Below are positions 2,549-62,640 of a stretch of 64,000 bases of DNA, in pieces. Made by a program: the position numbers and the translations under genes. The notes beneath the pieces were generated by a model. The model was not told the DNA's origin. It saw only the letters and a program-made list of their open reading frames with translations, and did not search any database. The DNA is from Cephalotus follicularis (Eukaryota > Streptophyta > Magnoliopsida > Oxalidales > Cephalotaceae). Location: the NCBI GenBank assembly GCA_001972305.1, contig BDDD01002131.1, positions 86,623 through 150,622 of the forward strand, given 5' to 3'. Each line of letters opens with the position of its first letter. The stretch's first letter is position 1.

Positions 2549-4038
2549 CTATAAAGTAGGGGGTTAGCCTTTGTCCTCACTCGGCGAAGTCATAAAAGTA
2601 GTTCGGGATCAACATTAAATGCATGTCATGTAATGTATGCATAAATGATGCAGTGCAGGAAATACCAGTTTATATATATATGAGAAATATATATATTTTA
2701 GCAGTACAGTAAACTAACAGTGGGTACATATATAAGAAAATATATGTATGCAAGAACAGTACAGCTGTAACCCGGCCAGGGTTACATCAACAGGCACAGT
2801 AATGTCCGAAAAGGACCAACAGGCAGTACAGTATATCCACAAAGGACCACAACAGTCAGGCAGTATGTGTAACGCCGCCAACTCCTGGCCCCACGTTCAC
2901 TCCCACTTCGGTCCCTACACCAGGCAACCAAGCGAGGCAACAGTACAGTACAGTGAGTCACCCAGCAAACTTCTGGCCCCTAGGTCAACCCTATGACTAG
3001 CAGGCGCTGGCAGCCTCCGTCATGCAACCAGTGGCTGAAGCACAACCACATAGAAATTCACAGAGCAAACAGTGAATCAAATAGTAAACTGTGCAGTAAC
3101 AGTACAGTGGTGATCGTTTAGATCGACAACAAGCAGTTCATTTTCAAATATTTCTGGAAGTAGCAAATATTTGAAATATGTATTTTCAGTAGTAGAAATA
3201 CTTTTGAACAATTCAGTAGTGTAAATCGCTTTCCAGTTCGTTCGAAAATACGTTATCAATCAATACATATTTTCAAAATCGCGCATTCCGAGTTTACATA
3301 TGCATTTCTAAATATCAAAACTTTAGAAATCATAAACGATCTACAAAAGAAAACAAACAGGCAGTAAATAGTGTATATGCAATGCATACAAATGCTCAAA
3401 TGCACCCAAACAGGAATCGGGATCATTTCGCATCGTTAGCTAAGGAAACCTCCAAATAGTACCAAAAGACGTCAATGTCTATTTAAAAGGCGTCGATGTC
3501 TTTTGTCCATCAGCGTCGATGTTCAAGTCCTTAGTGTCAGCGCATTCCACTGTTTAAAGATGTCGATGTCCATTTCATACGCATCGACGCTCAAGGTCTG
3601 GAACCTTTAAACGTCAGCGTATTGCTTACGGCGTCGACGCGTTAAGGTAGGAACCTTAGGCGTCGACATGTAATACGTCAAAACCCAAGTAGATAGCCTA
3701 AGGCGTCGATGTCTTTCTAAAGATGTCGATCTGTTTCACGTCAGTAACCAAGCAATAACCCAAAGACGTCGATGTTCTTAAAAGGCATCGATGTTTATCG
3801 AGTAGCAGTCGTCTTCTTCCTCACGACTTAACAGACAGTAGCCATTACAAACCATATACATGCAAAACAACATGTAATCAAGGCAGGAAACCAACATGCA
3901 AATACGTATTACATATCTAGCATAACATGGCATTAATCCAGTGAGAAAAATCAATTCAGTATTCATGCAATTTATACACCAAAATCATAGTCCATGCATG
4001 AACATTAATCTCAAGATTACAGTTATGGCTTCCCCTAC
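2549..4038 (-). other. Putative LTR leader intron (G1)
   Basis: On the minus strand AAAG/GTAGGG (GT at 4038-4037) follows the block CCTAACTTGGAA. The segment ends CCCCCTACTTTATAG/ATTGATG (AG at 2550-2549). Both ends lie in sequence conserved across families A, B, C and G. Splicing is inferred, not shown. Confidence 0.45.
3470..3792. repeat. GTCGAC-core array 2 of solo LTR G1 (GCGTCGACGC dialect)
   Basis: About 15 degenerate copies of GCGTCGACGC are present. The first pairs have cores at 3473/3494, 3517/3538, 3564/3585 and 3615/3635, and later ones at 3707/3727 and 3770/3789; most pairs are 19-21 bp apart with longer gaps between pairs. Most deviations are C-to-T or G-to-A at the central CpG, as expected from methylcytosine decay. 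The array lies inside the putative leader intron. Confidence 0.8.
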
Positions 4039-4282
4039 CTTTAGTTCCAAGTTAGGAACTGGAAAGTCCACCTCTTTGCGTTCCAAACTGGGCACAACAG
4101 CTCCAAGAATCGTCCCGTTGCTGCTAGCCCACAAGCTCTAAGTTCCAAGCTCCAAATTGCTCAACAATGGTGGTTTGGGTTTTCTCTCCTTAACTTTCTA
4201 TTTTCTTACCCTCACTGTGTTTCTCTCAAGCCTCCGGTTCTTTCCCAATCAGTAACAGCCAAAGGTAAGAGGTGAAGGCTGT

Positions 4283-4290
4283 CTTTTATA
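4283..4290 (-). promoter_or_regulatory. TATA box of solo LTR G1
   Basis: TATAAAAG on the minus strand is placed about 250 bp upstream of the putative splice donor and downstream of GTCGAC array 1. This is the same order as in B and C. Confidence 0.5.
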
Positions 4291-4644
4291 CAACTCACGT
4301 TCGTTTCTTCTTCCTCCGTGTTTTTGTTGCAGGTCACATGTGTCTAGGACACTCCCCACCCCTACATGCAATAGCTGGGTTTGTTTCTCAGTCCTTGTCT
4401 CAGCCCTCATGCCAGACAATGCCACATTCCTTCTAACCGTCCATTGCATGCACACATGCCCCTCTCTTCTTTGCACTTGTTGCATGTTCATACCCATGCC
4501 ACACTTGTCCTCACAACTTCAGTCATGCAGGTTAGGGAGTCATATGCATGCTCAACACGTCCCATTTCATGCCTCAAGGCGCCTGCAAAAGGCCCTAATT
4601 AGATTCCCTTTGCACGTTATTTTGTCAGCAGAGTAACGTGCCTG

Positions 4645-4806
4645 ACATTCGATGTTTACGCATCGACGTCTTCTTAAAAGACGTTGACGTCTTTTCCCTT
4701 TTACACGAGGGCGTCGATGTCCTCGCCTGCATCGACTTGCATGTGCATGCAGTTACGTGCGCCCCTTTGCTTAAAGGAGTCGATGTGTTTAGAAAGGCGT
4801 TGACGC
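4645..4806. repeat. GTCGAC-core array 1 of solo LTR G1
   Basis: Copies of the GCGTCGATG/CATCGACG type have cores near 4650, 4664, 4685, 4715 and 4733, and more around 4780-4805. The array is upstream of the TATA box in LTR orientation. Confidence 0.7.
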
Positions 4807-8397: not shown

Positions 8398-8400
<3 letters not shown>

Positions 8401-8444: not shown

Positions 8445-8446
<2 letters not shown>

Positions 8447-12297: not shown

Positions 12298-12500
12298 GAG
12301 CGTCGACTCCAAGAGATAGCATCGACGGCAAGGAACAAAAGGGCACACTTAAGGGTCCTTTCCTTAAGGCGTTGACACCAAGTGATGGCGTCAACACCCA
12401 CTGACTGAGAACTACAGGGGTAAGTGTTAACACAGTACGCAGAACATGTTAATGCAAAGGAAGAGAGTCAACGCATCGACGCACATCGTGAATGTTGACG
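12298..12500. repeat. GTCGAC-core array 1, element A 5' LTR
   Basis: Paired motif copies have cores at 12304/12323, 12373/12392, 12428/12450 and 12477/12496, with 19-22 bp within pairs. The array lies 200-400 bp upstream of the TATA-like sequence at 12707. The 3' LTR carries the equivalent array at 18890-19100. Confidence 0.78.
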
Positions 12501-13183: not shown

Positions 13184-13550
13184 GAAAGACGTCGACGCTT
13201 AGAGGTAGCATGTCGACGCCTTGGCCTGCATTATAGGGAAGAAGACATTTAAAGTGTCGACGCCATGAGAAGACGTTGACGCCTATAGATAAGGCATTGG
13301 CTCTTAAAATTCCTACCCTATAACGTCAACGCCAAAAGAGATGGACGTTGAGGCCTAAGGCTCCTGCCTTAGAGCGTTGACTCAAAGGATGGAAGCACTA
13401 CCTTAATGGTCTGTTGTACACGTTAACACCTAGATTCCATGTTGACGCCCATAGGATTGGTATGCGAGTTGACGCATAGGTTACACATCGATGCCTAGAG
13501 TGGCTTGTGTTGACGTCAGGAGGATTGATATGCGCATTGACGCATAAGTT
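13184..13550. repeat. GTCGAC-core array 2, element A 5' LTR
   Basis: More than a dozen copies of GCGTCGACGCC and deaminated forms (GTTGAC, GTCAAC, GTTAAC) are present. The array continues after the nested solo LTR (15693-15755). Solo LTR I landed within it at AGTTA. Confidence 0.8.
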
Positions 13551-13684
13551 ATGTAAGGACCCAAATTTCCATGTAAGATATTAAAAATGATTGCTATTGT
13601 GTAGTTAGCAAATATTTCAAGGGACCCGTAGTATGACCCTACGCTCGGGGAGTACGGGGGTTCCGTTGCCCGAACAGCGGGCAG

Positions 13685-13714
13685 GCGTTCGGGGGGCAGC
13701 GCCCCCGAAAGAAA
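13685..13714. other. GC-rich perfect hairpin in solo LTR I
   Basis: TTCGGGGG and CCCCCGAA form an 8-bp stem around a six-base GCAGCG loop (about 13689-13710). It stands out against A/T-rich surroundings and may be a structured DNA or RNA element. Confidence 0.7.
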
Positions 13715-13752
13715 TTTGTTTTTAGCTAAGTGATGAGAAGGAAAACTATCTA

Positions 13753-14070
13753 AAGCGCCGACAGTTCCACTTAAAGCGCCGATGCTTTGGTAGTGACGGT
13801 CGATGCCTAGAACCCTTCTATCTGCGTTTTAAACCAGTTCAAACCGTCGACGCTTAGGGATAAAGAGTCGACGCTTTGGCTAACGGTCGACGCTCTAAAT
13901 GTAAATGTCGACGCTTTAAATTCAGGTGGGTCAGTTGACGTTGACGTTGACGAAGACTTAAAAGCGGCGACGCTTTGTATGAAAGCGTCAGCGCTTTAGT
14001 CGGGATAGAGATGAAAAAGCTCAGGTAAAACCCTTAACTGCCGACGCTTAGAGAGAAACCGTCGGCGCTT
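13753..14070. repeat. GTCGAC-core array of solo LTR I
   Basis: Cores are at 13759, 13780, 13801; 13848, 13869, 13888, 13909; 13936; 13968, 13989; and 14042, 14063. Within groups the spacing is 21, 21; 21, 19, 21; 21; 21 bp. The array ends about 60 bp upstream of the TATA box at 14130. Confidence 0.88.
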
Positions 14071-14128
14071 TGAGTCGTTTTTCTGATGTTTTGTGCGCCA
14101 CGAGCCACGAATGGAGGCGGCGTTTTTT

Positions 14129-14140
14129 TTCTATAAATAG
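14129..14140 (+). promoter_or_regulatory. TATA box of solo LTR I
   Basis: CTATAAATAG matches the plant TATA consensus and sits between the motif array and a purine-only leader. It is the clearest promoter in the window. Confidence 0.72.
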
Positions 14141-14163
14141 CTATGATCAGTAGAAAAATTTGA

Positions 14164-14305
14164 ATGAAAGAGAAAGGAGAGAAGAAAGAGAGAAAAAGAA
14201 AGGAGAGAAGGAAAAGAGAAAGAGAAGGAAGAGAAGGAAGAGAGGAAGAGAAAGAAGAGAAGGAATAGAGGATGAGAGAAAGAAGGAAAGAGGAGAAAAG
14301 AGAAT
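14164..14305. repeat. Purine-only tract in solo LTR I
   Basis: About 140 nt of the plus strand are almost all A/G, immediately downstream of the TATA box. Such homopurine strands can form triplexes or act as purine-rich leaders. It also opens spurious reading frames on both strands. Confidence 0.9.
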
Positions 14306-17238
14306 TTTGTTGGGATTTCAGCATAGTAATTTCTTCAATGTGGAGAAAATATAGAAGGAGATAAAGAAAAGTAAGGACTCCTGTTCTTTTTCTAAAAATA
14401 CTTTATGTTAGGAATTTCTACTCATTCTTTTAAAATATTTTATTTTAGTATTCAGCTCAATCTAATTTCACTTTCCCATCGATATGATCGGTATATCCAT
14501 CTGACCGAGTTGAGGAAGTTAATTTTTAATTTAATATTTCAATTAAGCAGTTTTATGCTCGTTGTAACCGTTTATTTTATCAACTCAATTTAATTTAACT
14601 TTTCCATCGAAATGATCGGTATATCCGTCTGATCGAGTGGAGGAAGTTAATTTTTAATTTAATAATTCAATTAAGCAATTTTTATGCTCGATATTTAAAT
14701 AACTTATCTGTATATATCTTTTATAATTATTACGTTCCTGTATTTTAAATTTCTGCCAATATTCATGGTAAATGTCTATATTAAATTTATGTAAATTCTT
14801 AAATTCTGTGTTGAATTGCTGCCGATTTCTTAACGAAATTTTGTATTATTATTTTAAAATATTTCCGTTTGAAATTTAAATTCTAGAAAATGTTGTACAA
14901 AATTATTTATGAATGCTTTGAGCTGATCACTAAACGTGTCAAGAAATGATTATTTTTACGAAATGAGAAAAGGCAACAAACTGAGATGAACAACGACTGG
15001 ATTGCGATCCAGGGTGGATTAATCTAATAAAAGATTAATGTGAAAGAGCGGAGAGTGCTCTCGGACATGCATGTGATGTAAGGATAGCAATCGGGGAGTG
15101 CACAATGCCCCGGTGAAGCAATGGTTCAACAGGGTTATTTAAGTTTATAAACCCCCCAGTATTTATACAATATTCTGATTCATGAGATATGATCAAAAAA
15201 GAAATGAATGAATGTGAAATATACTGGTTTTATAAAAATACCAGAAAATGAATTTCAACAATGTTTTATTACGATAATTCTTACTGAGCTATTTTGGTGC
15301 TCACTCATTTCAATGTTTTTGTTTTCAACTAAAATTTTCCAGGAAAGGATTGAACGAGGAAAGTCGAGCTTTGGCAGGAGCTCATAAGTGATATTTCGGA
15401 AGGAAATTATGTTACGAATATAGTTTGTGTAATAGTTTATGACATTATAAACTAATATTTTCCGCTGTATAATGTCTTTTGATAGATCCTGTGGAGATGT
15501 AAGATGTTGACTATAATTGTTATGATGATTTAAATAAGAGTATAAAATCTTAAGGTTTAGAATATCAAATTATTTATAGATATTAGAAATTAGTAGGATT
15601 GTTAAAGGATAATAGGTTTCACCACCGCGTAACGCACCGACTCCCCAAAGTTCGCTTTGAGCATAAAGTAGACTCGGATCTGGGGTGTTACAAGTTACAC
15701 GTTAACGCCTAAGGGTACTGAGATACGCGTCGATACCCAGAGGGAACACGTTGACGCCAAAAGGACTATCTTGCATTATGAGCATATATTTGTTTACAAT
15801 TCATTGGTTTGATTCTTAGAATCATTAATGACTGTACTATTTGACTGAATTGCATTACTGAAAGTTATTAGTGTTATCGATATTTTATATTTATCAACGT
15901 ATTTTATACAAATACTATTGTTCAAGGATTTTAAGGAACTGAGTACTATGGGTACTTTTCATGGTTTTCCACTGTTACTGTATTTTATTGTTTTCCTCAT
16001 ATGAGAGGTACCGCCATCGTTACTGTTTACTGTTTTCTCCAAGTGAGAATTACTGCACTGTACTATTTTCCTCCAATGAGAGGCATTGTTACTGAACTAT
16101 TACTGTTTTCTCAAACGAGATCTTACTGAACTGTTTTCCCGTTTTCCAAAAGAAAAATACTGTTTAATGAATGTATTATTTCAAGTATTTTATAACTATC
16201 ATCTACTTGGAAAAGGATTGATTGAATTGATTGATTGGTTACAAATCATAGAGTGTAATGTAACCTGGTGCAAAACATAGAGTGTACGCATCCCTTGACT
16301 GAATTGATTGATGGACTGTGATGGGAATTCCACTTTAGTTACTAAACACATAGTGGAAGTAAATAGGAATTTCACATGAGTGGGCTACTAAACACTGAGT
16401 GGAAGTATCTAGGGACTCCCAAAGTTGGCTGTTACTAAATGCATAGCGGAAGTAACCAGGTTGCTAAACACAGAGTGGAAGTGACCGGGTGCTAAACACA
16501 GAGTGGAAGCATCCCCGAATAGAGTGTTGTCCTATGTGACATGATTGACTGATAGAGTGTTGTCCTATGTGACATGATTGACTGATTGGATTGTTGTCCT
16601 TTGTGACATGACTGATGGATTTTTGTCCTTTGTGACAAGACCGATAGATTGATGGTTGTATCCACTTGTCATGGTTGCTTACCTATGGACTGATGTATAT
16701 ATATATATATATATATGTATAGTGATATATTATGTATTGCATCACGAATACATTCATTACATGGCATTTATTATAGTTGACCCCAAGTGCATTTATATTT
16801 TCTCTACTTAGCCTATGGTTTGGCTAACCCCCTACAATTTCCAGATTGACAGAGGAAATCGGACAAATGCTGCTGAAGCTGTTTTGGAAGCTTCCATTTT
16901 GAAGGTTGTTAAAAGTGTATTGCGTTGTAATAATCATGCTCTGTTGTGTTGTATTTACATTTCCGATATGTAAAATATAACGTGTATTGTAATGAGTTAA
17001 GCATGCAGTATGGGCTACATGCGATTACTACTTGAATAATCCAGTATACTGAATGCTTCCGCAAGGTTTTAATTTATTTGGATTTTTGATAATACTGGAA
17101 AAATTGATAACCATGTGTTAAACTGAAAACGGGGTATGAAGAGCTTATTATTAAATAAGCTATCGCTAGGATATTATCCTCAGCAATTAAGTAAATTGTT
17201 TCATAGTGATTAACACAACTTTCCTTATAGGAGACATT

Positions 17239-18743: not shown

Positions 18744-19782
18744 TGTAACGCCTAGAATTTCTATTAAAGTGTTTTGTATTTCTCATTGAAACTTAAATGA
18801 GGAACTAATGTGAATGTTAGATTTTGAATGGGACAATGTTAAAGAATGTGGTGTTTGATTGAGGAAAATTCAGTGAAGGAGACACTTGAGCGTCGATGCC
18901 AAGAGATAGCGTCGAGGCCAAGGAACAAAAGGGCACGCTTAAGGCTCCTTGCCTTAAGGCGTTGACGCCAAGTGATGGCGTCAACACCCACCGACTGAGA
19001 AGTAAAGGGGTAAGCGTTAACGCAGTACGCGGAACCTATTAGTGCCAAGGAAGGGAGCCAACGCATCGACGTGCATTGTGAACATTGACGCCTAAAACTG
19101 TCGGTAGAATAAGACAAAACACTGACAGGAGACGCATGATAGACAATGTGGAATGCTTTATCTCTTCCTCATGCATCGAAATGGCAGAGAGAAAAGAAAG
19201 AAAGGACAGTGGCATGCCATACCTGTAATGGCAGAGGGAAAGAGAGAGAGAGAGAGACACTAGGTGCCATGAAAGCGGGTGAGAGGAGAAAGAGAATCTC
19301 CTCCATAAAACACTCTCTTTTCTCTTTCTTCGACCAACACCTAATAGAGAGAAATAGAGAGAAAGGCTGAGAGGAGACAGGAGAGAAACGGAAAAGAGAG
19401 GAACCATATCTCCTCCATTGTTGAACTGATTTAGAAGCTTGGAAAGCTTGAAAGATGGAATTGGGAAGCTCAAACTTGGAGCTGCAGTGCTGGACCAGGG
19501 AGCGCAAAGCTACTAGTCGGTAAAGCTTAAAGAGATGGACTTCGATTCCTAACTTGGAATCAGAGGTAGGGACTATATACTTGTATTTTGAGTACAAAAA
19601 TAGGTGATGTTCATTTGGTGAAATACATGAGTGTTGGATTGTGACTGTGCATGTTAAGGTATGCCATAACCCGTATGCATGGTATGACCTAGAGTGAAAA
19701 TGGGTTGAATTGCATGTGTTGTATGCATGATTCCTACTGGTTTGATACACTGTGGCGTTGTGATATTGTTCCAGTTCGACAG

Positions 19783-20205
19783 ACGTCGACGCCTAGAGGG
19801 AAGACGTCGACTCCTTGGCCTGTATTATAGGGAAGAAGACATTTTAAGTGTCGACGCCATGAGAAGACGTTGACACCTATAGATAAGGCACTGGCGCTTA
19901 AGGTTCCTACCTTATAGCGTCGACACCAAAAGAGATGGACGTTGATGCCTAAGGCTTCTGTCGTAGAGCATCGTCGGAAAGGATGGAAGCACTGACACTT
20001 AATGGTGTGCTGTACACGTTAACTCCTAGATTCTGTGTTGACACCCAGAGGATTGGTATACGCGTTGATACATAGGTTACACGTCGACGCCTACTGTGAC
20101 TTGTGTGGACGTTAAGAGGATTGATATGCGCATTGACGCATAAGTTTCATGTTAACGCCTAAGGAAATTGAGTATGCGTCGACGCCTAGAGGGAACGTAT
20201 TGACG
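19783..20205. repeat. GTCGAC-core array 2, element A 3' LTR
   Basis: Cores occur in pairs: 19787/19808, 19852/19871, 19921/19943, 19972/19993, 20020/20039, 20066/20085, 20134/20153 and 20180/20201. Spacing is 19-22 bp within pairs and mostly 46-51 bp between neighbouring pair starts. A few extra motifs continue the about 21-bp phase. Many cores are deaminated to GTTGAC or GTTAAC. Confidence 0.82.
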
Positions 20206-21324: not shown

Positions 21325-21754
21325 GTATAGTGATATATTATGTATTGCATCACAAATGCATTCATTACATGGAATTTATTATAGTTGACCCCAAGTGCAT
21401 TTATATTTTCTCTACTTAGCTTGTGGTTTGGCTAACCCCTTACAATTTCCAGATTGACAGAGGAAATCGGACAAGTGCTGCTGAAGCTGTGTTGGAAGCT
21501 TCCATTCTGAAGGTTGTTTAAAGTGTATTGCATTGTAATAATCATGCTCTGTTGTGTTGTATTTACATGTCTGATATGTAAAATATAACATGTATTGTAA
21601 TGAGTTAAGCATGCAGTATGGGCTACATGCGATTACTGCTTGAATAATCCAGTATACTGAATGCTTCCTCAAGGTTTTAATTTATTTGGATTTTTGATAA
21701 TACTGGATAATTTGATAACCATGTGTTGAATTGAAAACGGGGTATGACAATGCC

Positions 21755-21796
21755 ATACCATGTCACTCCATAATGCGGTGATGCCCTAGTGTTAGA
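21755..21796 (-). mobile_element. Family F fragment 3, right remnant
   Basis: This short continuation of the F fragment lies beyond element A's right target duplication, up to the TG that appears to start the copia-like LTR. Confidence 0.45.
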
Positions 21797-23962
21797 TGTA
21801 GTGACCCGACAAGCCATTGGATGGGCTGTCGTATTATATCTATCCTTGTATATAAACAATCTTATTCCTTTTATATATGACATGTGCTAATTTGTAATGG
21901 CAATATCACTTGTGTTTTATCACTTAATTGAAGTAGTTTATTATTTACCTACTTACGCCTGTGATGCCCTGACATAAGGTTGGATGCCTAGCATGGAGGC
22001 TGTGAGATTGGTTACCTTATTCCTTATGTCGAATTAGTTCCAAGTCATCGGTTCACTTTGTGGGCATTAGTGAAATGGATAGACTTGCCCCTATGTTGCC
22101 TGCTCATGGAATTGGAGGATGGATTCTTTCACTACCATCTGTGTTGGACACTAGGGCAAATTCGGGGTGCGCGCTGGGAGCGTGTACACTGAACTGGACC
22201 CACGTAGGAGACACTGTTTGGATAGTCGCTATTCTTGTATCACTAGTGACTCCTACTTGTTGCGGTTGTGTATAAGTGTTAGTCACTTAGTGAGTTCTCG
22301 AACTCGTCTGATCCTTAGACCTGAGTGAATGCTCTATATTGTATGGAGACGATTATGCTTTGATCTCCACCTTACCCAGTTCTTGCGCAAGGCTGGCAAT
22401 CGGGTGGTCTTTGGGTATGATCGAATCTATACGAATATAAGCGAGTGTGCAATAAGGGATTGTCACACATGAGCGAAGGTGATCGACCCTATTATGGTCT
22501 GATTGTACTTTGGACTCATGAAATTCTTGGCCAAGGTTGAGGTAAATTGGAAATTAGATTTTCGGAGAATCTGCCAAAGGTCCTAGTAATAATCAAATAT
22601 ATTAGATATTGAGGTTTTATCTACGGTTGACACGTATCCTTACCCTAGACCTCAATTGGGGCCAAGTATGACAAGGGATTATAGTACACTTGAATCGACG
22701 ACTTAGAAAGTCTTGCGTTAGGCGGTGTGTAATGAATAATGGGAAAATTAATTAGATTAATTTTTCCATATGAATAATATTAGATATTATTCCGAGAGCA
22801 TTTAAATTGATTTAGGACCATTTAGAATGGCTAAACCGAAGGGGTATTTCAGTAATTTATGAACACCTCCAATTTTAACCAAGATTTTATAGGGTCCTTG
22901 CCCAATAATGATTAGTTATTTAATATGTTGGACATATTAAGTCTTGGTGTAATTTTATCAAATATCGGTTAAGTGGATTTTGCATCTTGTGGAAACACAT
23001 CTGTTTGATCTTGCTTAATCAATATTAGAAGGGATAATATAAGTTGGACTTATACTCAATTTGCTTCACCTACCAGTCTAAGCGTCGACGCTTTCTACGA
23101 AGGCGTCGATGCTTAACACATGAATAGCCGTCGATGTCTTTTAGAAAGACATCGACGTTTAGTGAATTTATGTATAAGCATACACGCTTTCTACGAAGGC
23201 GTCGACGCTTTGAGCGCGATGTGCAACCTGTGCACGATAATAAATCATGGGCATGTTTTCTCTCTCATCTCCAGCCGTCTTCTCCCGTCCATGCACGATA
23301 TAGACACGTGGGGATCATGGTTTCGAGCTCCCTAGAAGTGAGGACCATGATCCTATGTGTGTGGGAGAGTGGAAAAGAGGGCTAGTGAGTGCTTTTTCTG
23401 CAGAAAATTTGTTTGTTTTCAAAAGAGGTTTTTCTGGGCAAAAACTTGAGAGTTCTCTCTGCAGAGTGTGAGTTCCCTTCTCTGATATACACTAAGCAAG
23501 TGCTTATCTAGGGTGGATTGATTTTGACTTCTCTTATCAATCTCAATTTACCTTACCTAAGCTTAGAGAGAGTGTGTGTGAGCTTTGTGTGTTTGCTTCT
23601 TCCTTGCTGGGCTGGAGTAGCAATTGTACCAAGGTCGTTGGGAGCATTATTGTGGTTGTCTTCCCAACCTTGTTGCGGCAGAGAAAGGATGAGCCACCAG
23701 CTGAAGGTATAAATTCTATGTCTTCCCTTAGGCTGCCATGTTTTGTCTTCTTGTGTGTCACCATTGGTTGTCTTTTGTGACACCAATTCAACTATTGTTG
23801 ATGATGTGGTGATCCTTGTGGCTTGTGTTCTTGCCATTATGGACTGGTTTTGTTTGTTTAGGGTGTTATTTCCGCTGCCATGATTACGCTTTTAAGTTTT
23901 GTTCTACACCTTTTAGCCTTAAGTCCATTTTTGGCTCTGGAGACGTTTTACCATTTCCATCA
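21797..23962 (+). mobile_element. Element H: probable 5' LTR of a Ty1/copia-type element
   Basis: TGTAGTGACCCG at 21797 and TTTCCATCA ending at 23962 delimit a 2.2-kb LTR. A tRNA-iMet-type primer site follows one base later and a copia-type gag lies 1.7 kb downstream in the same orientation. The left border is a judgement, since no second LTR or target duplication is visible. It carries a GTCGAC array (23082-23212) although it is not a gypsy LTR. Confidence 0.6.
23082..23212. repeat. GTCGAC-core array 1 of copia-like LTR H: three 21-bp pairs
   Basis: Cores are at 23086/23107, 23132/23153 and 23182/23203. Spacing is exactly 21 bp within each pair and 46-50 bp from pair to pair. This is the same three-pair geometry as in B (36587-36708) and C (28168-28288). 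Confidence 0.87.
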
Positions 23963-23963
23963 G

Positions 23964-23975
23964 TGGTCTCAGAGC
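23964..23975 (+). other. Primer binding site of element H
   Basis: TGGTCTCAGAGC is one mismatch from the tRNA-iMet site TGGTATCAGAGC and lies just after the LTR end. Confidence 0.6.
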
Positions 23976-25669: not shown

Positions 25670-26110
25670 ATGGCTTTACAATATGCTATGTCCCGCATTT
25701 TAGAGACAAACAAATTGATAGGCCCAAACTTCATCGATTGGCAACGTAACCTCAAATTTATCCTAACGGCCAATAAATTGGCGTATGTGATGAAATGGGG
25801 GCCTCCATCACTAGGCGATGATCCTACGCCTGATGAGTGGGATCGTCTGGCCATGTAACTGGAGGACGATGAGCACGCTCGGTGTATCGCCCTTTTGAAG
25901 ATGGCACCGGAGCTACAATGCAAGTATGAGAAGATAGAGACCTTATCCGCTATACTACTCGATCTCGAGGAGATGTATGGGGCTGGGTCTGGGACTCAGA
26001 GGCTTAATCTCTCACACAAGATCTTCAAGGCACAGATGCCAGAGGGAGCTTCGTTCCATGATCATGGACTGGAGATGATAGACATGATTGAGCAGCTTAC
26101 TCAATTAGGG
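25670..26110 (+). pseudogene. gag: Copia-type gag, N-terminal part, truncated by element C
   Basis: The ATG at 25670 opens a frame running to 26110 with a single in-frame TAA (25856; context suggests CAA to TAA). The protein shows the Ty1/copia gag pattern: NKLIGPNFIDWQRNLKFIL near the start, P-P-ADEW-like spacing, a D-EHARCIALL segment, and FKAQMPEGASFHDHGLEMIDMIEQL before the break. It is cut in the middle of the domain at 26110 by the LTR of element C, whose left target site would be TAGGG. The zinc-knuckle half is missing from the window. The element probably resumes at 62641. Confidence 0.82.
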
Positions 26111-28292: not shown

Positions 28293-28438
28293 GCCCGCCC
28301 TGTTTCAGCACTTCTACACTTTAACTTTTGCTCAAGACTTAACATTTCAAAATGGGAAAAGTCATAATTCTCATTAATTCAAAACGTAAATTACATCGGG
28401 AAATACAATATTACAGTGATGAAATCCCGAGCATTACA

Positions 28439-46868: not shown

Positions 46869-47073
46869 CAACTGACTGTTATAGATCTCCAGTCGACTGT
46901 GGAAGCTTGGCAGTCAACTATCCAATAGGGCCAGTCGACTAGACAAACTGGACTGCAGGAAGTCGACTGTGACAGGGGTCCAGTAGACTGTGCAAGGCAA
47001 AGTAGTCGACTGATCAAACAAACAGCCGACTACACAACATATGATAGCCAACTGTCCATAAGAACAGCCGACT
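46869..47073. repeat. 21-bp phased GTCGAC array of element D 3' LTR
   Basis: Cores are at 46873, 46894, 46915, 46936, 46964, 46985, 47007, 47027, 47049 and 47069. Spacing is 21, 21, 21, 28, 21, 22, 20, 22 and 20 bp. The dialect is CAGTCGACTG/CAGCCGACT. The 5' LTR has the matching array at 61310-61520. Confidence 0.93.
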
Positions 47074-47814
47074 GTTCTGGACGACAGAACAGTAGAAACT
47101 AAACGATTTAATGCAGAAACTTGTCAAAACATGTATAACTTGATACCAGAGGCCTATGAACATATATATAAGACATTGTATGGCATTTAGACAGTAGGAA
47201 AACACATAATTAACATAATTTATGAGACCAGTGGCTAACTCAAGGAAAAGAGAGATTTTCTAAACGCATGCATACATATTTAACTCCCATTTTCTGACAA
47301 GTTACCAACCATTTATATAACACCAGATTGCATAACTCTTCCATGATGCTAAAACATGCTGACAGCCTCATAAACTATGACATAATACAATGACAGGAAT
47401 CAAAGCAACTCTAACAGCCTATATGAACCATGGATTCGGATAACATTAAAACTAAAACCGATACCAAGCCATAACTACAGATTAGACAAACCTGAAGGAT
47501 GCCAAAAACAGTTGTAGAGACACCAAATCAGAGGTAATCAAAGGCTGTCCAAAAAGAAAACGAAAGGGAGAAGCTTACGGATTCAAAAACTACCATTGTT
47601 ATGCATATCAAGCAACACAATCCCTTAATCCGAAATAAGAATAACAAACTTGATATTGATGAAGAACTTTGCACAAGAACAAAACAAATTCCAGAATGCA
47701 AAAATGGTCAGTGAGCAGGCAAAGGAAACGGATGGCAGAAAACCATAGACTAAAGCCATTCTTAAATCTAAAAGGAAGAGGATTTCGGGCAGGATAAGGA
47801 AAGAAAGGAAGAAA

Positions 47815-50130: not shown

Positions 50131-52766
50131 TGTCAGGACCACGTTCCCGCTAACTCTATGGGACACGTGTCCTGCCGGGGATCGCGCTTCTCTAGCCAAC
50201 AACCCTCTTAAACTAAAACTGCCCAAGGAGAAAGCCTGGGCTGGGCTGGGCACGCACCTGACTAGGAAACCGGGGCAGAGGGTCTAACTCCTCTCCTGCA
50301 TGTGCCCAAAGCTCAGCTTAAAACCAAAGCTCCAAACGCGCTGTATCACTTAAGCCCAAAGAGAACACCCACGTGCTCCTCACGAGGTCACTTAACTTAG
50401 CGCACAAAAGCATGCCCGGGGAGAGCACACACGTGCAACTCACGAGCACACTTAAATACCTATGGTCCAACATGCCCGGGGACACTCCTTGTCCTTGGGT
50501 CTTTCTTCTTCCCTAGTTAAAACATCCTTAGCTCGTGTTCTAAAATGATGCGCATAACTAACGCCTGGGGAGAAACCCACTCACGTTTCACGTGCCCACT
50601 TAAACTCCCTTGGGGGCACGCAGCAAGTCCCCCGGTGCCCCTGCTTAATATAACAACACTAACATCAAACTTATGCCCGTCCCGGGCCTTACTCTAACAA
50701 GCCTTCTCTGACATCTACCCAAGGACTCCTTCTGAGGGCCAAACACCAAAGGCCCAACCTTACCCGGGGACAGCCTATCTCCACAGGTAACACTCTAAAA
50801 GCTTAGAACATCCATCCTGGCCTTAGCTATACTCCCCCGCTAAGCTCATCTTTGCTACCCAAGCCCGGGGACTCTCTAGCTCCCCTGCCAGGCCTGGGAT
50901 CACAAAACTCAAAACATGAAACAAACATAAAACATAAGATAAACATATCTATGAACTCAAAACATTCATAACATATCTCGAAAGCATCAGATCATTACAT
51001 ATCTTGTTCTCTGGCATACATACATGCCTCCTCTGGCAGGCAAAAGAACATCATATCTATACATAAAGAAAACTCTTAGCTACTTCACTACAAAAGAAGG
51101 GTAGCAGAACCCAAAGAATGCCCCATGCTATGCAATGCTAACGCCCGAGCTGACGTTCCCCAGCGCTAATCTCAAAAACTACCTCGTTAAGCTATCTACT
51201 GCTGGGCTGGAGGGTCTCCTCCGCCTGCCTGGTCTACAAAACAGTCTGTGACGGGATTAGTCCAACTGACAAAATGAAATGAGAACAAAAAATCCTCTGG
51301 TACATTCTTAAAAATGAATGTGCTGAAAGAAAGCTTACCATGAACATGAAAACTATCGCAAGTGGGGAAAAGACTGTAACAAACATATGTCATGGCATAC
51401 AATAAAGAAACGCTCAAAGTACTTGAAAAACTTACTCTTTCTATGCTTAGCTAGTTCTAGAACGTTCATAAAAGCTGAAATAAACTTAAGAATGCATCTG
51501 GTTAAAAGAAAGATATCTGTAAAAGAACTGGGTTCCTTCCTGGCTAAACACCCGAAGAGAACAACTAAGCTAGGAACTGGCTTTTCTATGCTGATCTAGG
51601 CCGAAGCCTGCTCGTTACATAGTATAGTTGCCAACTTATAGTGGCGCTGAGCTGATCTAGGCGGAAGCCTGCTTGGCAGTAACTACCGAGAACCCATGGT
51701 TCCCTCTGTGCTTGTTATTACTTGCTTTACTTACTAACGAGGCATGATGGCATGACTGTCGAGGACAAGGTCCTCCTCTAGAAGACTTACCGAAAGACTC
51801 TAATCATTATTTTAACAACTTAGCTCTGTTGTACTCAAACCCTAAACACCATCATAGACAATAGCGTAAAGGAGATCCAGGTAGGACCTGGGGACAGTCT
51901 CGCCGGGCTTCCTATCATAGACCGAGGAGGTTGGAGCTATGTACATAGTGCTCGGCTACACTCACCCTAAACACCATCATAGACAATAGTGTAAAGGAGA
52001 TCCAGGTATGGAACCCGGGGGCAGACTCGCTCGACTTCCCATCATAGACAATAGTTGGCCGAGGAGTTGGGTTGAGCACGTACGCGTTACCGTACTGGAA
52101 GTGACTAATTCACTTGGGACAAACTTGAGCTCTAGTGCTCGGGAACTCTCTTTCTCACTTCGGTTAAGGGAAACATACAAAGATGCTAGGGAAAAACAAA
52201 TTCCCGTTAGAAAACTCTCACTGTACTAGAATGAAAACTGAAAGATTTATCAAAAACATCATGAAACAATTTGAAACATAGAAAGGATGTCCCACTCATA
52301 GTTCTTGGCTGCCTTCTTACTGGCTTCCTCTGAGGAGAACTTCTCCTCTTTCTCCTCGTCTGCTACTGCTCCTGGCTGCTTCTCCACTAAGCTTGGAAAG
52401 CTTCAAACTACTGTTCTCCTCCCGCTCATCAACGACAACGAAGAAGAAGAAGAAGAAGAACTGGAGCTCTCCCTCTCACTCTAAAACTCTCCAATCTGCT
52501 GAAACTGAAGAAAGGAAAGACCACATCACCAGATATATCTCCAATCTCCCATCATAAGCCGTCATTTGCCTTTAAGATATGGAAGCTTTCTCAACAAGCT
52601 TTGCACTTAAGTCCCTTAACTTCCACTAATCATGCTTTATACTTAGGCTTATAACACTGAACAACACTTAACCTTTCTCTCTTACTCAATTAAGTCCAAA
52701 GCCCAAGAAAAACACAAAAGAAAATTTTTTTTCCCTTAGGCTCCAAAATAGCTACGGGGCGTTACA
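50131..52766 (-). mobile_element. 3' LTR of element E
   Basis: The 2636-bp LTR runs TGTCAGGACC...GGCGTTACA. It carries four CACGTG motifs (50164-50169 inside GGACACGTGTCC, 50370, 50430 and 50589), a duplicated block around CATCATAGACAATAG (51853-52060), and a (GAA)n run near 52440. It has no GTCGAC array, unlike the other LTR families here. Confidence 0.93.
51846..52065. repeat. Tandem duplication in E's 3' LTR
   Basis: Two units of about 115 bp each contain CTAAACACCATCATAGACAATAG...GTAAAGGAGATCCAGGTA, and CATCATAGACAATAG recurs near 52042. The 5' LTR has the same arrangement (56084-56305). Confidence 0.82.
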
Positions 52767-52782
52767 ACCTCCCCACCTTAAG
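52767..52782 (-). other. Polypurine tract of element E
   Basis: Minus strand CTTAAGGTGGGGAGGT lies directly against the 3' LTR. Confidence 0.82.
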
Positions 52783-54400: not shown

Positions 54401-54403
54401 TCT

Positions 54404-56686
54404 TGTCAGGACCACGTTCCCGCTAACTCTATGGGACACGTGTCCTGCCAGGGATGGCGCTTCTCTAGCCAACAACCCTCTGAAACTAAAACTGCCCGAG
54501 GAGAAAACCTGGGCTGGGCTGGGCACGCACCTGACTGGGAAACCGGGGCAGAGAGTCTAACTCCTCTCCTGCATGTACCCAAAGCTCAGCTTAAAACCAA
54601 AGCTCCAAACGCGTCGTATCACTTCAGCCCAAAGAGAACACCCACGTGCTCCTCACGAGGTCACTTAACTTAGAGCACAAAAGCATGCCCGGGGAGAGCA
54701 CACACGTGCAACTCACGAGCACACTTAAACACCAGTGGTCCAACATGCCCGGGGACACCTCTTGTCCTCGGGTCTTTCTTCTTCCCTGGATAAAACATCC
54801 TTAGCTCGTGTTCTAAAAATGTTGCGCATAACTAACGCCTGGGGAGAAATCCACGCACGCTTCACGTGCCCACTTAAACTCCCCTGGGGGCACGTACCAG
54901 TCCCCCGGCGCCCCTGCTTAACATCACAACACTAACATCAAACTTATACCCATCCCGGGCCTTACTCTAACAAGCCTTCCCTGTCATCTACCCAAGGACT
55001 CCTTCTTGGGGCCAAACACCAAAGGCCCAACCTTACCCGGGGACAGCCTATCTCCACAGGTAACACTCTAAAAACTTAGAACATCCATCCTAGCCTTAGC
55101 TATACTCCCCCGCTAAGCTCATCTTCGCTACACAAGCCCGAGGACTCTCTAGCTCCCCTGCCAGGCCTAGGATCACAAAACTCAAAACATGAAACATACA
55201 TAAAAACATAAGATAAACATATCTATGAACTCAAAACATTCATAACATATCTCGAAAGCATCAGATCATTACATATCTCGTTCCTTGGCATACATACATG
55301 CCTCCTCTGGCAGGCAAAACAACATCGTATCTATACATAAAGAAAACTCTCAGCTAGTCTACTACAAAAGAAGGGTAGAAGAACCCAAAGAATGCCCCAT
55401 GCTATGCAATGCTAATGCCCAACCTGACGTTCCCTGGCGCTAAGATCAAAAACTACCTCGTTAAGCTATCTACTGTTGGGCTGGAGGGTGTCCTCTGGCT
55501 GGCTGGTCTACAAAACAGTCTGTGAGGGGATTAGTCCAACTGACAAAGTGAAATGAGAACAAAACATCCTTTGGTACATTCATATAAATGAATGTGCTGA
55601 AAGAAAGCTTACCAGGAACATGAAAACTATCCCAAGTGGGGAAAAGACTGTAACAAACATATGTCATGGCATACAATAAAGAAACGCTCAAAGTACTTGA
55701 AAAACTTACTGTTTCTCTGCTTAGCTGGTTCTAGAACGTTCATAAAAGCTGAAATAAACTTAAGAATGCATCTGGTCAAAAGAAAGATATCTGTAAAAGA
55801 ACTGGGGTCCTTCCCGGCTAAACACCCGAGGAGAACAACTAAGCTAGGAACTGGCTTTTCTATGTTGATCTAGGCCGAAGCCTACTGGTTACATAGTGTA
55901 GTTGCCAACTTATAGTTGGCAATAACTGCCGAGAACCTTCCCTCTGTGCTTTCTATTGCTTGCTTTACTTACTAACTGGGCATGATGGCATGACTGCCGA
56001 GGACAAGGCCCTCCTCTAGAAGACTTACTGAAAGGCTCTAATCTCTCTTTAGCAACTTAGCTCTGCTGTACTCAAACCCTAAACACCATCATAGACAATA
56101 GCGTAAAGGAGATCCAGGTAGGACCTGGGGATAGTCTCGTCCGGCTTCCTATCATAGACAATAGTAGACCGAGGAGGTTGGAGCTATGTACATAGTGCTC
56201 GGCTGTACTCACCCTAAACACCATCATAGACAATAGTGTAAAGGAGATCTAGGTATGGAACTCGGGGGCAGACTCGCTCGACTTCCCATCATAGACAATA
56301 GTTGGCCGAGGAGTTGGATTGAGCATGTACGCGTTACCTTACTGGAAGTGACTAATTCACTTGGGACAAACTTGAGCTCTAGTGCTCGAAAACTCTCTTT
56401 CTCACTTCGGTTAAGGGAAACATACAAAGACGCTAGGGAAAAGCAAATTCCCGTTAGAAAACTCTCACTGTAATGGAATGAAAGTTGAAAGAGTTATCAA
56501 AAACATCATGAAATAATTTTAAACATAGAAAGGATGTCCCACTCACAGTTCTTGGCTACCTTCTTACTGGCTTCTTCTGACGAGAACTTCTCCTCTTTGT
56601 CCTCGTCTGCTACTGCTCTTGGATGCTTCTCCACTAAGCTTGGAAAGCTTTGAACTGCTGTTCTCCTCCCTCTCGTCAACGGCAAC

Positions 56687-56717
<31 letters not shown>

Positions 56718-57025
56718 AACTACAACTCTCCCTCTCACTCTAAAACTCTCTAATCTGCTGAAACTAAAGAAAGGAAAGACCACAGCACCAGATATATCTC
56801 CAATCTCCCATCATAAGCCGTCATTTGCCTTGGGATATGGAAGCTTCCTCAACAAGCTTTGCACTTAAGTCCCGTAACTTCCACTAATCATGCTTTTATA
56901 CTTAGGCTTATAACACTTAACAACATTTAACCTTTCTCTCCCACTCAATTAAGTCCAAAGCCAAAAAAAAACACCAAAGAAAAAAAGTTTTCTCTTAGGC
57001 TCCAAAACAGCTACAGGGCGTTACA
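54404..57025 (-). mobile_element. 5' LTR of element E
   Basis: This 2622-bp LTR is collinear with 50131-52766, including the GGACACGTGTCC palindrome (54434-54445), the tandem block and a longer (GAA)n run (56690-56720). Confidence 0.94.
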
Positions 57026-58100
57026 AAAAGACACCCCAAATCCTTCTTAGAAGCATCACTATAAATCTGGTATCCACCTTACCCAGATAGTGAACGAAGA
57101 ATCGGTGCTAACACAAGACCATTCTTCAGTTTCTCAAAGCTTGCTTCGCGTTCTTCATTCCACTCAAACTTAGCTCCTTTTCTCATAAGCTTGGTCAATG
57201 GTAAGGCTATGGAGGAAAAGCCTTCCACGAACTGCCTATAGTAACCAGCCAAACCCAAAAAGCTCCTAACCTCCGTCACTATGGTAGGTCTCTGCCATTT
57301 AGTAATAGCCTCAACTTTAGCAGGATCCACACTAATCCCTTCAGCTGTAACCACATGACCCAAGAAAGCCACCTGTTCCAACCAGAACTCACATTTTGAA
57401 AACTTTGCGTATAGTTGATTCTTCCTCAGAATACCCAGCACTATACGAAGCTGTTCTTCATGTTCTTCCTTCGACTTTGAATACATAAGGATATCATCTA
57501 TGAACACAATTACAAACTGATCCAGAAACTCATGAAACACCCGATTCATCATATCCATGAAGACTGTCAGTGCATTAGTAAGTCCGAATGGCATCACCAG
57601 AAAGTCATAATGCCCATATCGAGTACGGAAGCCAATCTTAGGTACATCTCCATCCTTATCCGAAGCTGATGATATCCCGATCTCAAATCGATCTTAGAAA
57701 AGTACGGAGCACCTTGGAGTTGATCAAATAAATCATCAATCAGAGGTAGAGGGTATTTGTTCCAAACAGTAATCCGATTCAACTCTCTGCAGTCTATACA
57801 TAGCCTCATTAAAACGTCCTTCTTCACAAAAAGTATCAGAGCATGCCATGGCGAAACACTAGGCCGAATGAAACCCCGATCCAACAACTCTTGCAACTGC
57901 TCCTTTAGCTCCTGTAATTCAAGTGGTGCCATCCTATAAGGTGCTTTAGATATAGGCGCCGCTCCAGGAATGAGCTCAATGGTAAACTCCACTTCTCGTT
58001 GCGGTGGCAAACCCGGTAACTCCTCCAGAAACACATCTGAAAATTCTCGAACCACAGGATAGTCTTCAATGTGAGGCTCAACCTGAGAGACATCTTTCAT
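57026..58100 (-). pseudogene. Element D reverse transcriptase and start of RNase H
   Basis: On the minus strand: the linker [20 protein letters not shown] motifs ([28 protein letters not shown]), a frameshift near 57640-57600, then [12 protein letters not shown], the catalytic [21 protein letters not shown] and the connection domain. RNase H starts just before element E's insertion at 57025. A missing or extra base and substitutions (for example [13 protein letters not shown]) show it is dead. Confidence 0.9.
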
Positions 58101-59694: not shown

Positions 59695-59846
59695 TAAGAA
59701 AAGATACCGAAACATAAAATATCGAAAGCAAATAGAAACAAAAACATAAGGCATATCAAAAAGACCATATCAAAGTAACCTAACCCATAGTCTACCCAAC
59801 CTCATAGGTCAAACCTAGTTAGGTCTTCTAAGGAAACAAAACCTAT

Positions 59847-59858
59847 TCTCTGATACCA
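59847..59858 (-). other. Primer binding site of element D
   Basis: TCTCTGATACCA (plus) is the reverse complement of TGGTATCAGAGA, an almost perfect tRNA-iMet site, five bases from the LTR. Confidence 0.88.
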
Positions 59859-59863
59859 CAATC

Positions 59864-62640
59864 TGTAACACCCCCGAACGACAGGAGCCATTACAGGTTA
59901 TAGCATAACAAAACATAACATAACTTACTGAACATATGCATAACTTTATTAGCTAAAAACGTGACGGTCAAAGCATAACATATCTGGATAACATACTGAA
60001 AACTGATCATAAACTGAAAACTTAACATATTCTGAAAACTTAAACATGTTCCAAGGGTCAATTATTAAAAACATAAACCAAAAGTAACTTATTGTTCATG
60101 ACCACTCCTAACAGAAAACATACAGGGATCACACTCCTACAGGATCTTTGACATAAGGTGGTCATCTCTCAATAACACTCTCCCCCGTTGCTCCTGATAA
60201 CCTGTCACATGAAAACAAAAATGTGGCTGAGCAAACCTCAGTACGAATAAAGAATGTAAAACAGCAAACGATAATTTGGAAGCAGTAAGATTTCCAAAGG
60301 TTATCTCGAAACAGAAATCTTAAGCAGTAAATCAGTTTAAACATTCCTTGAAGTCAAATTCATAACTTTCGAAACATATACGAAACATTTTAAATACATA
60401 AGTTTCATAATATCATATTGAGCCACATAACATATCATGTATCAAAACATATGGATGGCAAGGAAGGCACTAATTCCACATGCCCAATAGAATTGAAGTG
60501 TGCGGCACTACACAAGTCAATTCTCATATCATATCATATCGCACATTACATAACTCATCACGTATGCCATATACTAGAATCGATTCATACGCCTCTATCA
60601 TACATAACGGATCCATAAATCCACCTCATGGGATTTATTCATAACATAGAGAGACGTTGTAGACTAATCACACCGCTATGGAAGTGTCATGTCCCCGTGC
60701 CAGGCCTACGATATGCCTATGGTACGCCCCATAGGTGGGTGCAAATACTCAGTATTTTTGAATTCAAAACATTGATTTATCACAATCAATTAAAATTCAT
60801 ATAGAAGGCTTTTTCGAAACATATTCATAAATTGTTATCAAACGATGTCGTTTTTTTCATAACATACATTTTCATAGTCGGAAATCAACTCATTTATTTT
60901 CCACCATAAAAGAGATGACCATATCGTATTTCATAACATAGCATAAAGTCAGGAACCTTTAATTTCACAAAGATGTCAAAACTGACTTTATAATCAAAAC
61001 CGTAAAACATAACCGAGTTCATAAAACCGAAGGAACATATCGTAAAACAAAACTGAATTTATCAAACATAGTGTCAAAGAGCAGAATATCCGTACCTTAT
61101 GCGCTTACAGAAAAGACTTACGAAAAGACTAATTAAATTTTAACTGCCATTCAAAGCACAACAATCTAAAAGACATAAAACCATTCATATAAGGGTCTGA
61201 AAATCACTAAGGCATAAAACATATTTATAACAGTGTTTAGGACAGACCCTGATCAACCAGAAATGCAAACAGGCCAAGAAAATTGAAAACAGAAATTTCC
61301 TGGGCAAAACAGCTGACTGTTACAGAGCTCCAGTGGACCGTGGAAGCTTGGCAGTAGACTATCCAACAGGGCCAGTCGACTACACAAATTAGACTGTAGG
61401 CAGTCGACTGTGACAGGGGTCCAGTCGACTGTGCAAGGAAAAGCAGTCGACTGATCAAACAAATAGCCGACTACACAACATGTGACAGCCGACTGTCCAT
61501 AAGAACAACCAACTGTTCTGGACGAGAGAACAACAGAAACTTGTCAAAACATGTATGACTCGATACCAGAGGCCTGTGAACATATATATAAGACATTGTA
61601 TGGCATTTAGATAGTAGGAAAACACATAATTAACATAATTTATGAGACCAGTGGCTAACTCAAGGAAAAAAGAGATTTTCTAAACGCGTGCATACATATT
61701 TAACTCTTATTTTCTAACAAGTTACCAACCATTTATATAACACCAGATTGCATAACTCTTTGATGATGCTAAAACATGCTGACAGCCTCATAAACTATGA
61801 CAGAATATAATGATAGGAATCAAAACAACTCTAACAGCCTATATGAACCATGGATTCGGATAACAATAAAACTAAAACAGATACCAAGCCATAGCTACAG
61901 ATTAGACAAACCTGAAGGAAGCCAAAAACAGTTGTAGAGACACCAAAATAGAGGTATTCAAAGGCTGTCCAAAAAGAAAACAAAAGGGAGAAGCATACTG
62001 ATTCAAAAACTATCATTGTTATGCATATCAAGCAACACAATTCCTTAATCTGAAATAAGAATTACAAACCTAATATTGATGAAGAACTTTGCACAAGAAC
62101 AAAACAAATTCTAGAATGCAAAAATCGGCAGTGAGCAGGCAAAGGAAAGAAATGGCACAAAACCATAGACTAAATCCATTCTTAAATCGAAAAGGGAGAG
62201 GATTTCGGGCAGGATAAGGAAAGAAAGGAAGAAAACGCGTGAGGGAGTGAAGAGAGGGAGAGATCATCGGGAGAGATAGAGATAGGAAAGAGAGACGGGT
62301 GGGAGAGGGAAAGATACAGGTGAAATAGAAGAGAGAGAGAAGAAAGAAAAAGGAAAGAAGAAAAAGAATAGGAAAAGAATACGAATAAAATTTTGTTTTA
62401 ATAGTTAATTTAAGTTTTAACAAAAATAAATATAAAACTGATTTTTTTTAAAAATAAAATTGATAAAAGGCATAAGCCATACATATACATACAAACATAC
62501 CCAAAAGTCCAGGCTGGTATCAGTCAGTCCCAAAACACATAGACCCCAAAACAGGGCAAACGGACTTCACAAAATAAAAGCCCGAAGACAAACAGATTAA
62601 AAGTTCGTAAAACATGCATACGAACAAACAGGGTATTACA
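59864..62640 (-). mobile_element. 5' LTR of element D
   Basis: This complete 2777-bp LTR runs TGTAACACCCCC...GGGTATTACA on the plus strand. It includes the 21-bp array (61310-61520), a GA-rich tract and TATATAA-type promoter candidates on the minus strand (61580 and 61735). A donor-like ATAAG/GTACGG is at 61092-61100 (minus). Confidence 0.93.
61312..61520. repeat. GTCGAC array of element D 5' LTR
   Basis: This is the same array as 46869-47073 with independent point changes, for example CAGTGGACCG and CAGTAGACTA. About ten units keep the roughly 21-bp phase. Confidence 0.9.

Follow-up and report, generated by a model that had tools for sequence, protein, structure and literature searches.

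Introduction

Sireviruses are known among the copia retrotransposons for repeated palindromic motifs (RMs; Bousios et al. 2010, PMC2829016), which that paper treats as specific to Sireviruses among copia elements and illustrates in grapevine by the unit CGGTCGACCG. The same paper names as the Sirevirus hallmark copies of a polypurine tract (PPT) of the form AGGGGGAG and an AT/TG attachment site, and has the RM cluster start 200-400 bp into the long terminal repeat (LTR), span 300-500 bp and hold at least 8 copies per element. Here we describe arrays of two related palindromes, GCGTCGACGC (the GCG dialect) and CAGTCGACTG (the CAG dialect), with the core GTCGAC common to both, in a 64,000-nt stretch of nested LTR retrotransposons of Cephalotus follicularis (the window) and elsewhere in the 1.577-Gb genome of this plant.

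Two further systems are close to these arrays. VANDAL elements of Arabidopsis carry C- and T-type motifs among relatives, shared with the unrelated element AT9TSD1, and a VANC protein with DUF1985/DUF287, the VANC domains named in PMC5735166, has been shown to bind the motif and to demethylate, according to two reports (PMC5735166, PMC10398659). PMC4482647 gives RYCGAC as the CBFHV element, a site of the DRE/CRT type, and PMC11656987 lists a DREB1D site among the features associated with plant LTRs.

The Cephalotus arrays resemble Sirevirus RMs in their short palindromic units, clustered in the upper LTR and upstream of the open reading frame (ORF) between pol and the 3' LTR, and their GTCGAC core is also found in the grapevine unit of PMC2829016. 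Two copies outside the window, L033 and L030, carry a 12-mer of PPT and attachment site together with multiple PPT octamers, and their LTR arrays (127-490 with 10 units in L033, 165-661 with 16 units in L030) fit the published layout in copy number and span, but start earlier. Unlike Sirevirus RMs, the arrays also occur in Ty3/gypsy chromoviruses, which are not Sireviruses; a single genome holds them in two mutually exclusive dialects, and they are polar, with a register of about 21 bp. The CGG-CCG signature of Sirevirus RMs is absent from the consensus units, whose cores are TCGA/CCGA. The arrays are best read as an extension of the published Sirevirus motifs, and to call them an undescribed system, as the preliminary description of this DNA did, was too strong, since palindromic RMs have been in print since 2010 (PMC2829016).

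The arrays have several features in common with the VANDAL system: short motifs at high density in non-coding sequence, set in one orientation (polar here in 14 of 16 elements), growth by tandem repeats, two motif types and sharing with unrelated elements. VANDALs, however, are DNA transposons with motifs that are neither palindromic nor CpG-containing, while the arrays analyzed here belong to LTR retrotransposons and their candidate protein to another Pfam family. RYCGAC sites fit the sense-strand core, and the variable letters fall on R and Y, but the TG or GC behind CGAC, the mirrored 5' arm and the regular arrays are not part of such sites.

No report of these motifs in gypsy LTRs was found in the open-licence literature, and within its searchable text GCGTCGACGC gave a single match, in an HIV paper, and CAGTCGACTG none. 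As far as we have seen, what is new within that literature is the presence of the arrays in Ty3/gypsy elements, two exclusive dialects across two superfamilies, the polarity, the register, the apparent change of dialect in families that keep their LTR backbone, and a link between arrays and PF20167 proteins in both dialects. In our reading, to which we give a probability of about 0.6, the arrays would serve LTR retrotransposons as cis-regulatory modules, and two or more related factors would recognize them in trans.

Abundance of the motifs

The motif arrays of the preliminary description are real and genome-wide, and chance is excluded. The whole genome holds GCGTCGACGC 73,186 times and a reversed control string 121 times. 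A sample of 20 pieces of 10 kb each, set at arbitrary places, gave 188,190 readable bases. In it, GCGTCGACGC was seen 7 times and CAGTCGACTG 14 times, compared with 0.01 and 0.08 expected from dinucleotides. Extrapolation to the genome gives about 59,000 and 117,000 copies, respectively, the first figure being near the true count. Nine of the 20 pieces contain two or more units of the same dialect within a stretch of 130 bp.

The palindromes of 8 bp furthest over dinucleotide expectation in the sample were CGTCGACG (73-fold) and AGTCGACT (18-fold). When window and sample are taken together, only AT repeats outnumber CAGTCGACTG (24) and GCGTCGACGC (16) among 10-bp palindromes; without the window, GCGTCGACGC (7) is tied by ACGTCGACGT and exceeded by ACATCGATGT (8), two symmetric words that look like variants of the GCG dialect. 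Eight control words, seven of them palindromes, had 0-6 places each in window and sample at up to one mismatch, while the dialects had 57 and 80 under the same rule.

Array grammar

Arrays were compared in 32 sources with 322,793 readable bases, counting units with at most one mismatch; as L025-L035 were selected because they surround GCG sites or extend arrays, the dialect proportions in this set are not unbiased. The 131 CAG and 115 GCG units form 56 clusters, 55 of which contain a single dialect, whereas shuffling of the labels left 41 clusters mixed on average and 30 at the minimum. A hybrid of GC and CA arms was found in one of 204 exact GTCGAC cores (34 expected), and 94 of the 204 were symmetric (40 expected). 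The earlier proposal of one GTCGAC-core system in two dialects is supported.

Neighboring units keep a regular distance. Of CAG neighbors 11-60 bp apart, 64 of 90 are spaced by 19-22 bp and 47 by exactly 21 bp; the corresponding GCG figures are 20 of 35 and 10. From one 21-bp linker of the CAG dialect to the next, 3.2 of 11 bases are the same, compared with 8.3 of 10 in the motifs (15 comparisons), while GCG linker agreement comes from a single comparison. In the window and L005-L024, CAG inter-unit distances group at 20-22, 27-29, 41-43, 48-50, 62-64 and 69-71 bp. These groups correspond to 21-bp steps with an occasional 28-bp step, and the 7-bp offset may stem from descent.

Simple tandem duplication is disfavored as the origin of the arrays by their unrelated linkers, though block duplication exists: one CAG array aligns to itself at an offset of about 123 bp with 75-76% identity. 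This self-alignment, and array layouts that are common to related families, would suit a history without function, in which a chance unit was duplicated in tandem and spread with the elements, leaving the dialects as marks of lineage. We consider such a history improbable: linkers differ while motif and spacing persist, symmetric cores are in excess (94/204 vs 40), the same two dialects occur in two superfamilies, and the pol trees described below carry no dialect signal.

Polarity of the motifs

The units had been taken for palindromes, which they are in their commonest symmetric form, but they prove to be polar once oriented by element. On the sense strand the CAG form is (C/t)AG(C/T)CGACTG, with C at position 4 in 60 of 109 units and G at the mirror position 7 in 6 of 109. 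The GCG form is RCRTCGACGC, with A at position 1 in 28 of 60 units and at position 3 in 21 of 60, while the mirror positions are changed in 7 and 2 of 60. These 109 and 60 oriented units include both LTRs of some elements; the per-element test uses one set each. The 3' half, CGACTG or CGACGC, is better kept in 14 of 16 oriented elements, with 160 mismatches in the 5' half against 59 in the 3' half over 180 units (sign test p 0.004, optimistic since the elements are related). Counted by array, polarity holds in 18 of 22, a figure that omits 13 further GCG arrays of unknown or unclear sense. Degeneracy of the 5' half is seen in both dialects and both superfamilies. Since polarity is relative to the element, strand-symmetric deamination is excluded as its cause, and a plain strand mutation bias is unlikely too because the direction of change differs by dialect (T4C in CAG; G1A and G3A in GCG).

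Palindromic repeats of maize Sireviruses are a source of small RNA. A comparable role at the RNA level, with units pairing in the transcript for dimerization, in hairpins or as a small-RNA source, would be in keeping with each symmetric unit being complementary to every other and with array 2 of family D, which lies behind a TATA-like site and is probably transcribed. However, the favored sense change of the CAG dialect, T4C, gives C-A mismatches, while the pairing-neutral A7G is the rare one (60 and 6 of 109). RNA pairing is disfavored by this direction of the 5'/3' asymmetry, and we hold the RNA explanation to be very unlikely.

Elements carrying the arrays

The proteins of family D comprise gag, an RVP_2 protease, reverse transcriptase (RT), the zinc-binding part of integrase and a tail matching SH3_Tf2-1 (7.6e-26), with a sub-threshold chromodomain match (5e-4) in the tail. 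Families B and C hold parts of this domain set, and by their predicted proteins all three are chromovirus-type Ty3/gypsy elements, presumably of the lineage called Tekay. GCG arrays adjoin relatives of the family D proteins in L006, L017, L021, L025 and L035.

Copia elements are represented by three loci. In L034, a GCG LTR is followed by a piece of copia gag (71% over 87 residues to PF14223 gag). L033 has an LTR related to that of L034 (73%), behind the PPT/attachment 12-mer AGGGGGAGATTG and four PPT octamers, and in L030 the 12-mer and four PPT octamers stand ahead of a CAG LTR. This Sirevirus hallmark was found in L033 and L030 only, the 12-mer being absent from the window and from all other loci searched. 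With these copia LTRs and chromoviruses of both dialects, each dialect is present in both superfamilies. The sharing between gypsy and copia elements proposed in the preliminary description thus stands through the GCG arrays of L033 and L034, while its own example in the window, family H, could not be verified as copia; the family H region (21501-26100) has no ORF of at least 120 aa.

Three loci deserve separate mention. In a nest at C1:152001-165000 (L026 and L030), a GCG chromovirus 5' LTR and primer-binding site are followed by the CAG Sirevirus-like copy and then by chromovirus gag. The Sirevirus-like copy, which is without gag and most of pol, has GGCTT on both sides and lies in the chromovirus leader. 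Its CAG array enters the polarity counts in its own orientation, and as a Sirevirus array in the count by element. L028 contains at 956-3250 a tandem satellite with a period of about 190 bp, as judged by self-match offsets, beside LTR-like sequence with GCG units. In L029, about 1.7 kb separates a host-gene-like RING-H2 finger ORF at 171-1583 on the minus strand (9.4e-13) from the GCG array at 3292-3497; LTR sites may come to lie near host genes.

LTR layout and apparent dialect switching

In LTRs that start with TGTAAYGCC, array 1 begins about 138-220 bp in. Array 2 comes after GGTAGG, which is located at 625-628 bp in the LTRs of families B and D, and at 779-953 bp in those of the GCG dialect. 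The TATA-like site of family D, at LTR position 332, follows array 1 by about 60 bp. Alignment of the CAG LTR of family B with the GCG LTR of L026 gives blocks of 75% over 107, 66% over 331 and 83% over 121 columns. Between dialects, the LTR start, the leader and the stretch behind array 2 align, but the arrays do not, though they sit at homologous places.

Trees of integrase and RT show no dialect signal, with 3 changes each compared with a shuffled mean of 2.9; the test scores a GCG label for the chromovirus whose leader holds the inserted CAG Sirevirus-like copy. The aligned LTR flanks and the lack of dialect signal on the pol trees suggest that families change dialect without losing their backbone and pol, either through replacement of arrays or through exchange of short LTR stretches.

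CpG decay and methylation

Most decayed units had been thought to be changed at the core CpG, and the sites to be methylated. The core CpG accounts for only 31 of 160 substitutions in GCG units, where 53 fall on outer CpGs and 48 on the outermost bases, and for 11 of 110 in CAG units, where T4C/A7G makes up 51. C-to-T or G-to-A changes number 132 of 160 and 43 of 110, respectively. Between the paired LTRs of families D, C, B and F, decay has affected 9 of 36 CpGs in motifs and 100 of 259 CpGs elsewhere in the LTR; family F was summed in two parts because of an insertion, and the family A pair, which consists of two separate copies, was left out. Neither core-CpG decay nor special methylation is supported by these tallies. 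Since the motif CpGs do not outpace the others in decay, the data are compatible with ordinary methylation along the full LTR and give no hint of special sites.

The high share of C-to-T and G-to-A among GCG substitutions might suggest that methylation or mutation bias alone makes the whole pattern. We give this hardly any credence, as such bias cannot create words hundreds of times over expectation, strand-symmetric deamination cannot produce an element-relative polarity, and motif CpGs do not decay faster than others (9/36 vs 100/259).

The arrays as probable cis-regulatory modules

If the arrays are cis-regulatory, they would be rows of sites for sequence-specific DNA-binding proteins acting on the LTR promoter. 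The bound proteins could activate this promoter, keep it out of silencing, or both. The two sense-strand forms, (C/t)AG(C/T)CGACTG and RCRTCGACGC, would represent two specificities read by at least two related factors, each acting in trans on any element that carries the matching dialect. A spacing of about two helical turns, the polarity, the position at the promoter and the purity of dialect are what rows of protein sites predict, and argue for cis-regulatory arrays. That proteins bind the arrays, how many factors take part and how transcription or silencing responds are points that we infer. The distribution of the arrays suggests that two unrelated kinds of retrotransposon share one control system.

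One possibility for the factor is a host protein of the RYCGAC-binding type (AP2/DREB-like), to which we give an appreciable, though minority, chance. RYCGAC lies on the sense strand in 85 of 109 CAG and 50 of 60 GCG units, and the variable sense positions coincide with its R and Y; together with the LTR-associated DREB1D site, these variable positions slightly favor a host AP2-type factor. A smaller share goes to the PF20167 protein of Sirevirus-like elements, considered below, and the rest to something else.

Several observations weigh against the cis-regulatory reading. The idea of an RYCGAC-type factor gains nothing from a count over both halves of the unit: the hexamer is found on neither strand in 20 of 109 CAG and 8 of 60 GCG units, above the 15.9 and 4.3 expected (some elements enter this set with both LTRs), and the dialect-defining letters fall outside it. 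Distinct linkers amount to only 28 of 64 and 11 of 20, and elements related to each other do not count as independent; some of the spacing signal is thus common by descent. Family C and L012 are exceptions to the polarity. In the GCG LTRs of L035 and L017, about 330 bp separate array 1 from the first listed TATA-like site, at 656-657, unlike the 60 bp of family D. Mean leader identity falls slightly, from 0.62 within GCG (21 pairs) to 0.54 between dialects (14 pairs), which makes some linkage of dialect and backbone possible, though over the first 85 bp the values are 0.61 and 0.62. The pol trees have 8 labelled tips each, labelled by array adjacency, with some weak supports. Finally, two LTRs of the window starting at 52766 and 57025 (minus strand, same TGTAACGCC start) have no unit of either dialect; hence arrays are not required by all such elements.

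PF20167 proteins as candidate factors

Both Sirevirus-like copies with a 3' part have an ORF matching PF20167 (8.5e-23 and 7.7e-17) between an array of their own dialect and the 3' LTR. PF20167 is annotated merely as a putative plant transposon protein. In L033 the array at 372-476 precedes an ORF at 482-1705 with its ATG at 626, 150 bp behind the array end; in L030 the array is at 89-160 and the ATG at 276, a distance of 116 bp. The two proteins are 20% identical and homologous by profile (98.5%). They have 108 and 247 clusters of related proteins in this genome at E ≤0.001 (the lists may overlap). All 108 of the former and all 120 listed of the 247 are from Cephalotus follicularis, and one is 100% identical to the query along 77% of the latter. 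L022 contains another relative of the CAG type, which is cut at the N-terminus.

Pfam returns PF20167 alone for these proteins, with no DNA-binding domain. Structure models, scored by the predicted local distance difference test (pLDDT), were weak for the GCG type (pLDDT 56) and failed for the CAG type (pLDDT 38), and neither a fold search (E ≤0.001) nor a profile search (E ≤1) gave a PDB match. Among the listed relatives, 2 of 108 and 36 of 120 have hydrophobic stretches strong enough for a membrane (19-residue mean of at least 1.6). An envelope role is unsupported for most of them by these few stretches, which have no bearing on DNA binding. Scans of 93 PF20167 proteins for DUF1985 and DUF287 were negative up to an E of 10; no search for DUF1985 was made in the genome. 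The parallel to VANDAL elements drawn in the preliminary description therefore holds for the form of the arrays but not for the protein family. Its expectation that a host factor or an element elsewhere would be needed has gained a candidate in the PF20167 ORF behind an own-dialect array, though not one of the VANC family.

In a sharper form of the cis-regulatory reading, the PF20167 gene in the envelope position would encode a VANC-like, dialect-specific DNA-binding activator or anti-silencer that binds arrays of its own dialect, including those in its own promoter and LTR. Chromoviruses would have taken up arrays of both dialects and would exploit this protein, giving two regulatory guilds that span both superfamilies and between which families switch through array replacement. 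The position of the ORF in both copies, one per dialect, is consistent with this, and homology at 20% identity is expected for diverged specificity. Both protein families are large in the genome. Sirevirus motifs in print also group upstream of the ENV gene (PMC2829016), and no PF20167 ORF was found in the chromoviruses, which would hence ride on the protein in trans. We nevertheless regard this form as doubtful. There is a single copy per dialect, the proteins have neither a DNA-binding domain nor a PDB match, with models weak or failed, and the array ahead of the GCG-type ORF (L033, 372-476) is without an exact unit. The CAG-type copy, moreover, has lost gag and most of pol, and its open ORF may reflect youth (LTRs 98.6% identical).

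Arrays and other features of the window

Exact GCGTCGACGC occurs at 9 places of the window between 3631 and 42580, and exact CAGTCGACTG at 10 places between 27620 and 61444. Counting as an array at least three units with at most two mismatches each, we found arrays where GCG units had been claimed (families G, A, I, F and H) and where CAG units had been claimed (B, C and D).

GCG arrays lie at 3490-3815 and 4660-4806 on the minus strand, in an LTR starting at 4991. The plus-strand family F has them in its 5' LTR (starting at 12154) at 12300-12482 and 13189-13543, and in its 3' LTR (starting at 18744) at 18890-19072, 19783-19926 and 20081-20185. An insertion within the family F LTR, at 13551-15691, has a GCG array of its own at 13776-14068, with plus sense assumed from its TGTAAGG start. 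This insertion is solo-LTR-like, and its GCG-type units CCGTCGACGC, CGGTCGACGC and CTGCCGACGC recur in the Sirevirus-like L033. Family H has arrays at 23082-23208 and 24261-24389, with no strand assigned, and family A an array 2 at 42440-42608 on the minus strand, in an LTR starting at 43667.

Family B holds CAG arrays on the minus strand at 27277-27746 (array 2) and 28164-28293 (array 1), with the LTR start at 28438. The plus-strand family D has array 1 at 29925-30055 in its 5' LTR (starting at 29783), a coding region at 31768-36392 running from gag through RVP_2 protease, RT and integrase to the SH3/chromodomain-like tail, and array 1 of the 3' LTR at 36583-36713, about 60 bp ahead of the TATA-like site at 36772. 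Further along on the same strand are GGTAGG at 37068-37073, a putative splice-donor-like site with a conserved position in these LTRs, and array 2 at 37252-37561 with 14 units of up to two mismatches. Family C has arrays at 46890-47074, in an LTR starting at 48218, and at 61310-61495, in its other LTR starting at 62640, both on the minus strand. A direct-repeat pair at 50131-52767 and 54404-57026, 91.7% identical and LTR-like, has the TGTAACGCC start on the minus strand, and is a natural array-free control.

Conclusions

If the cis-regulatory reading is true, the motif system of Sireviruses would not be private to them, and two superfamilies would use the same two exclusive cis codes. Families would appear to change code yet keep their LTR backbone and polymerase. 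The two defined bait sequences would make the reader of the palindromes directly testable, and the PF20167 ORF would have a testable role.

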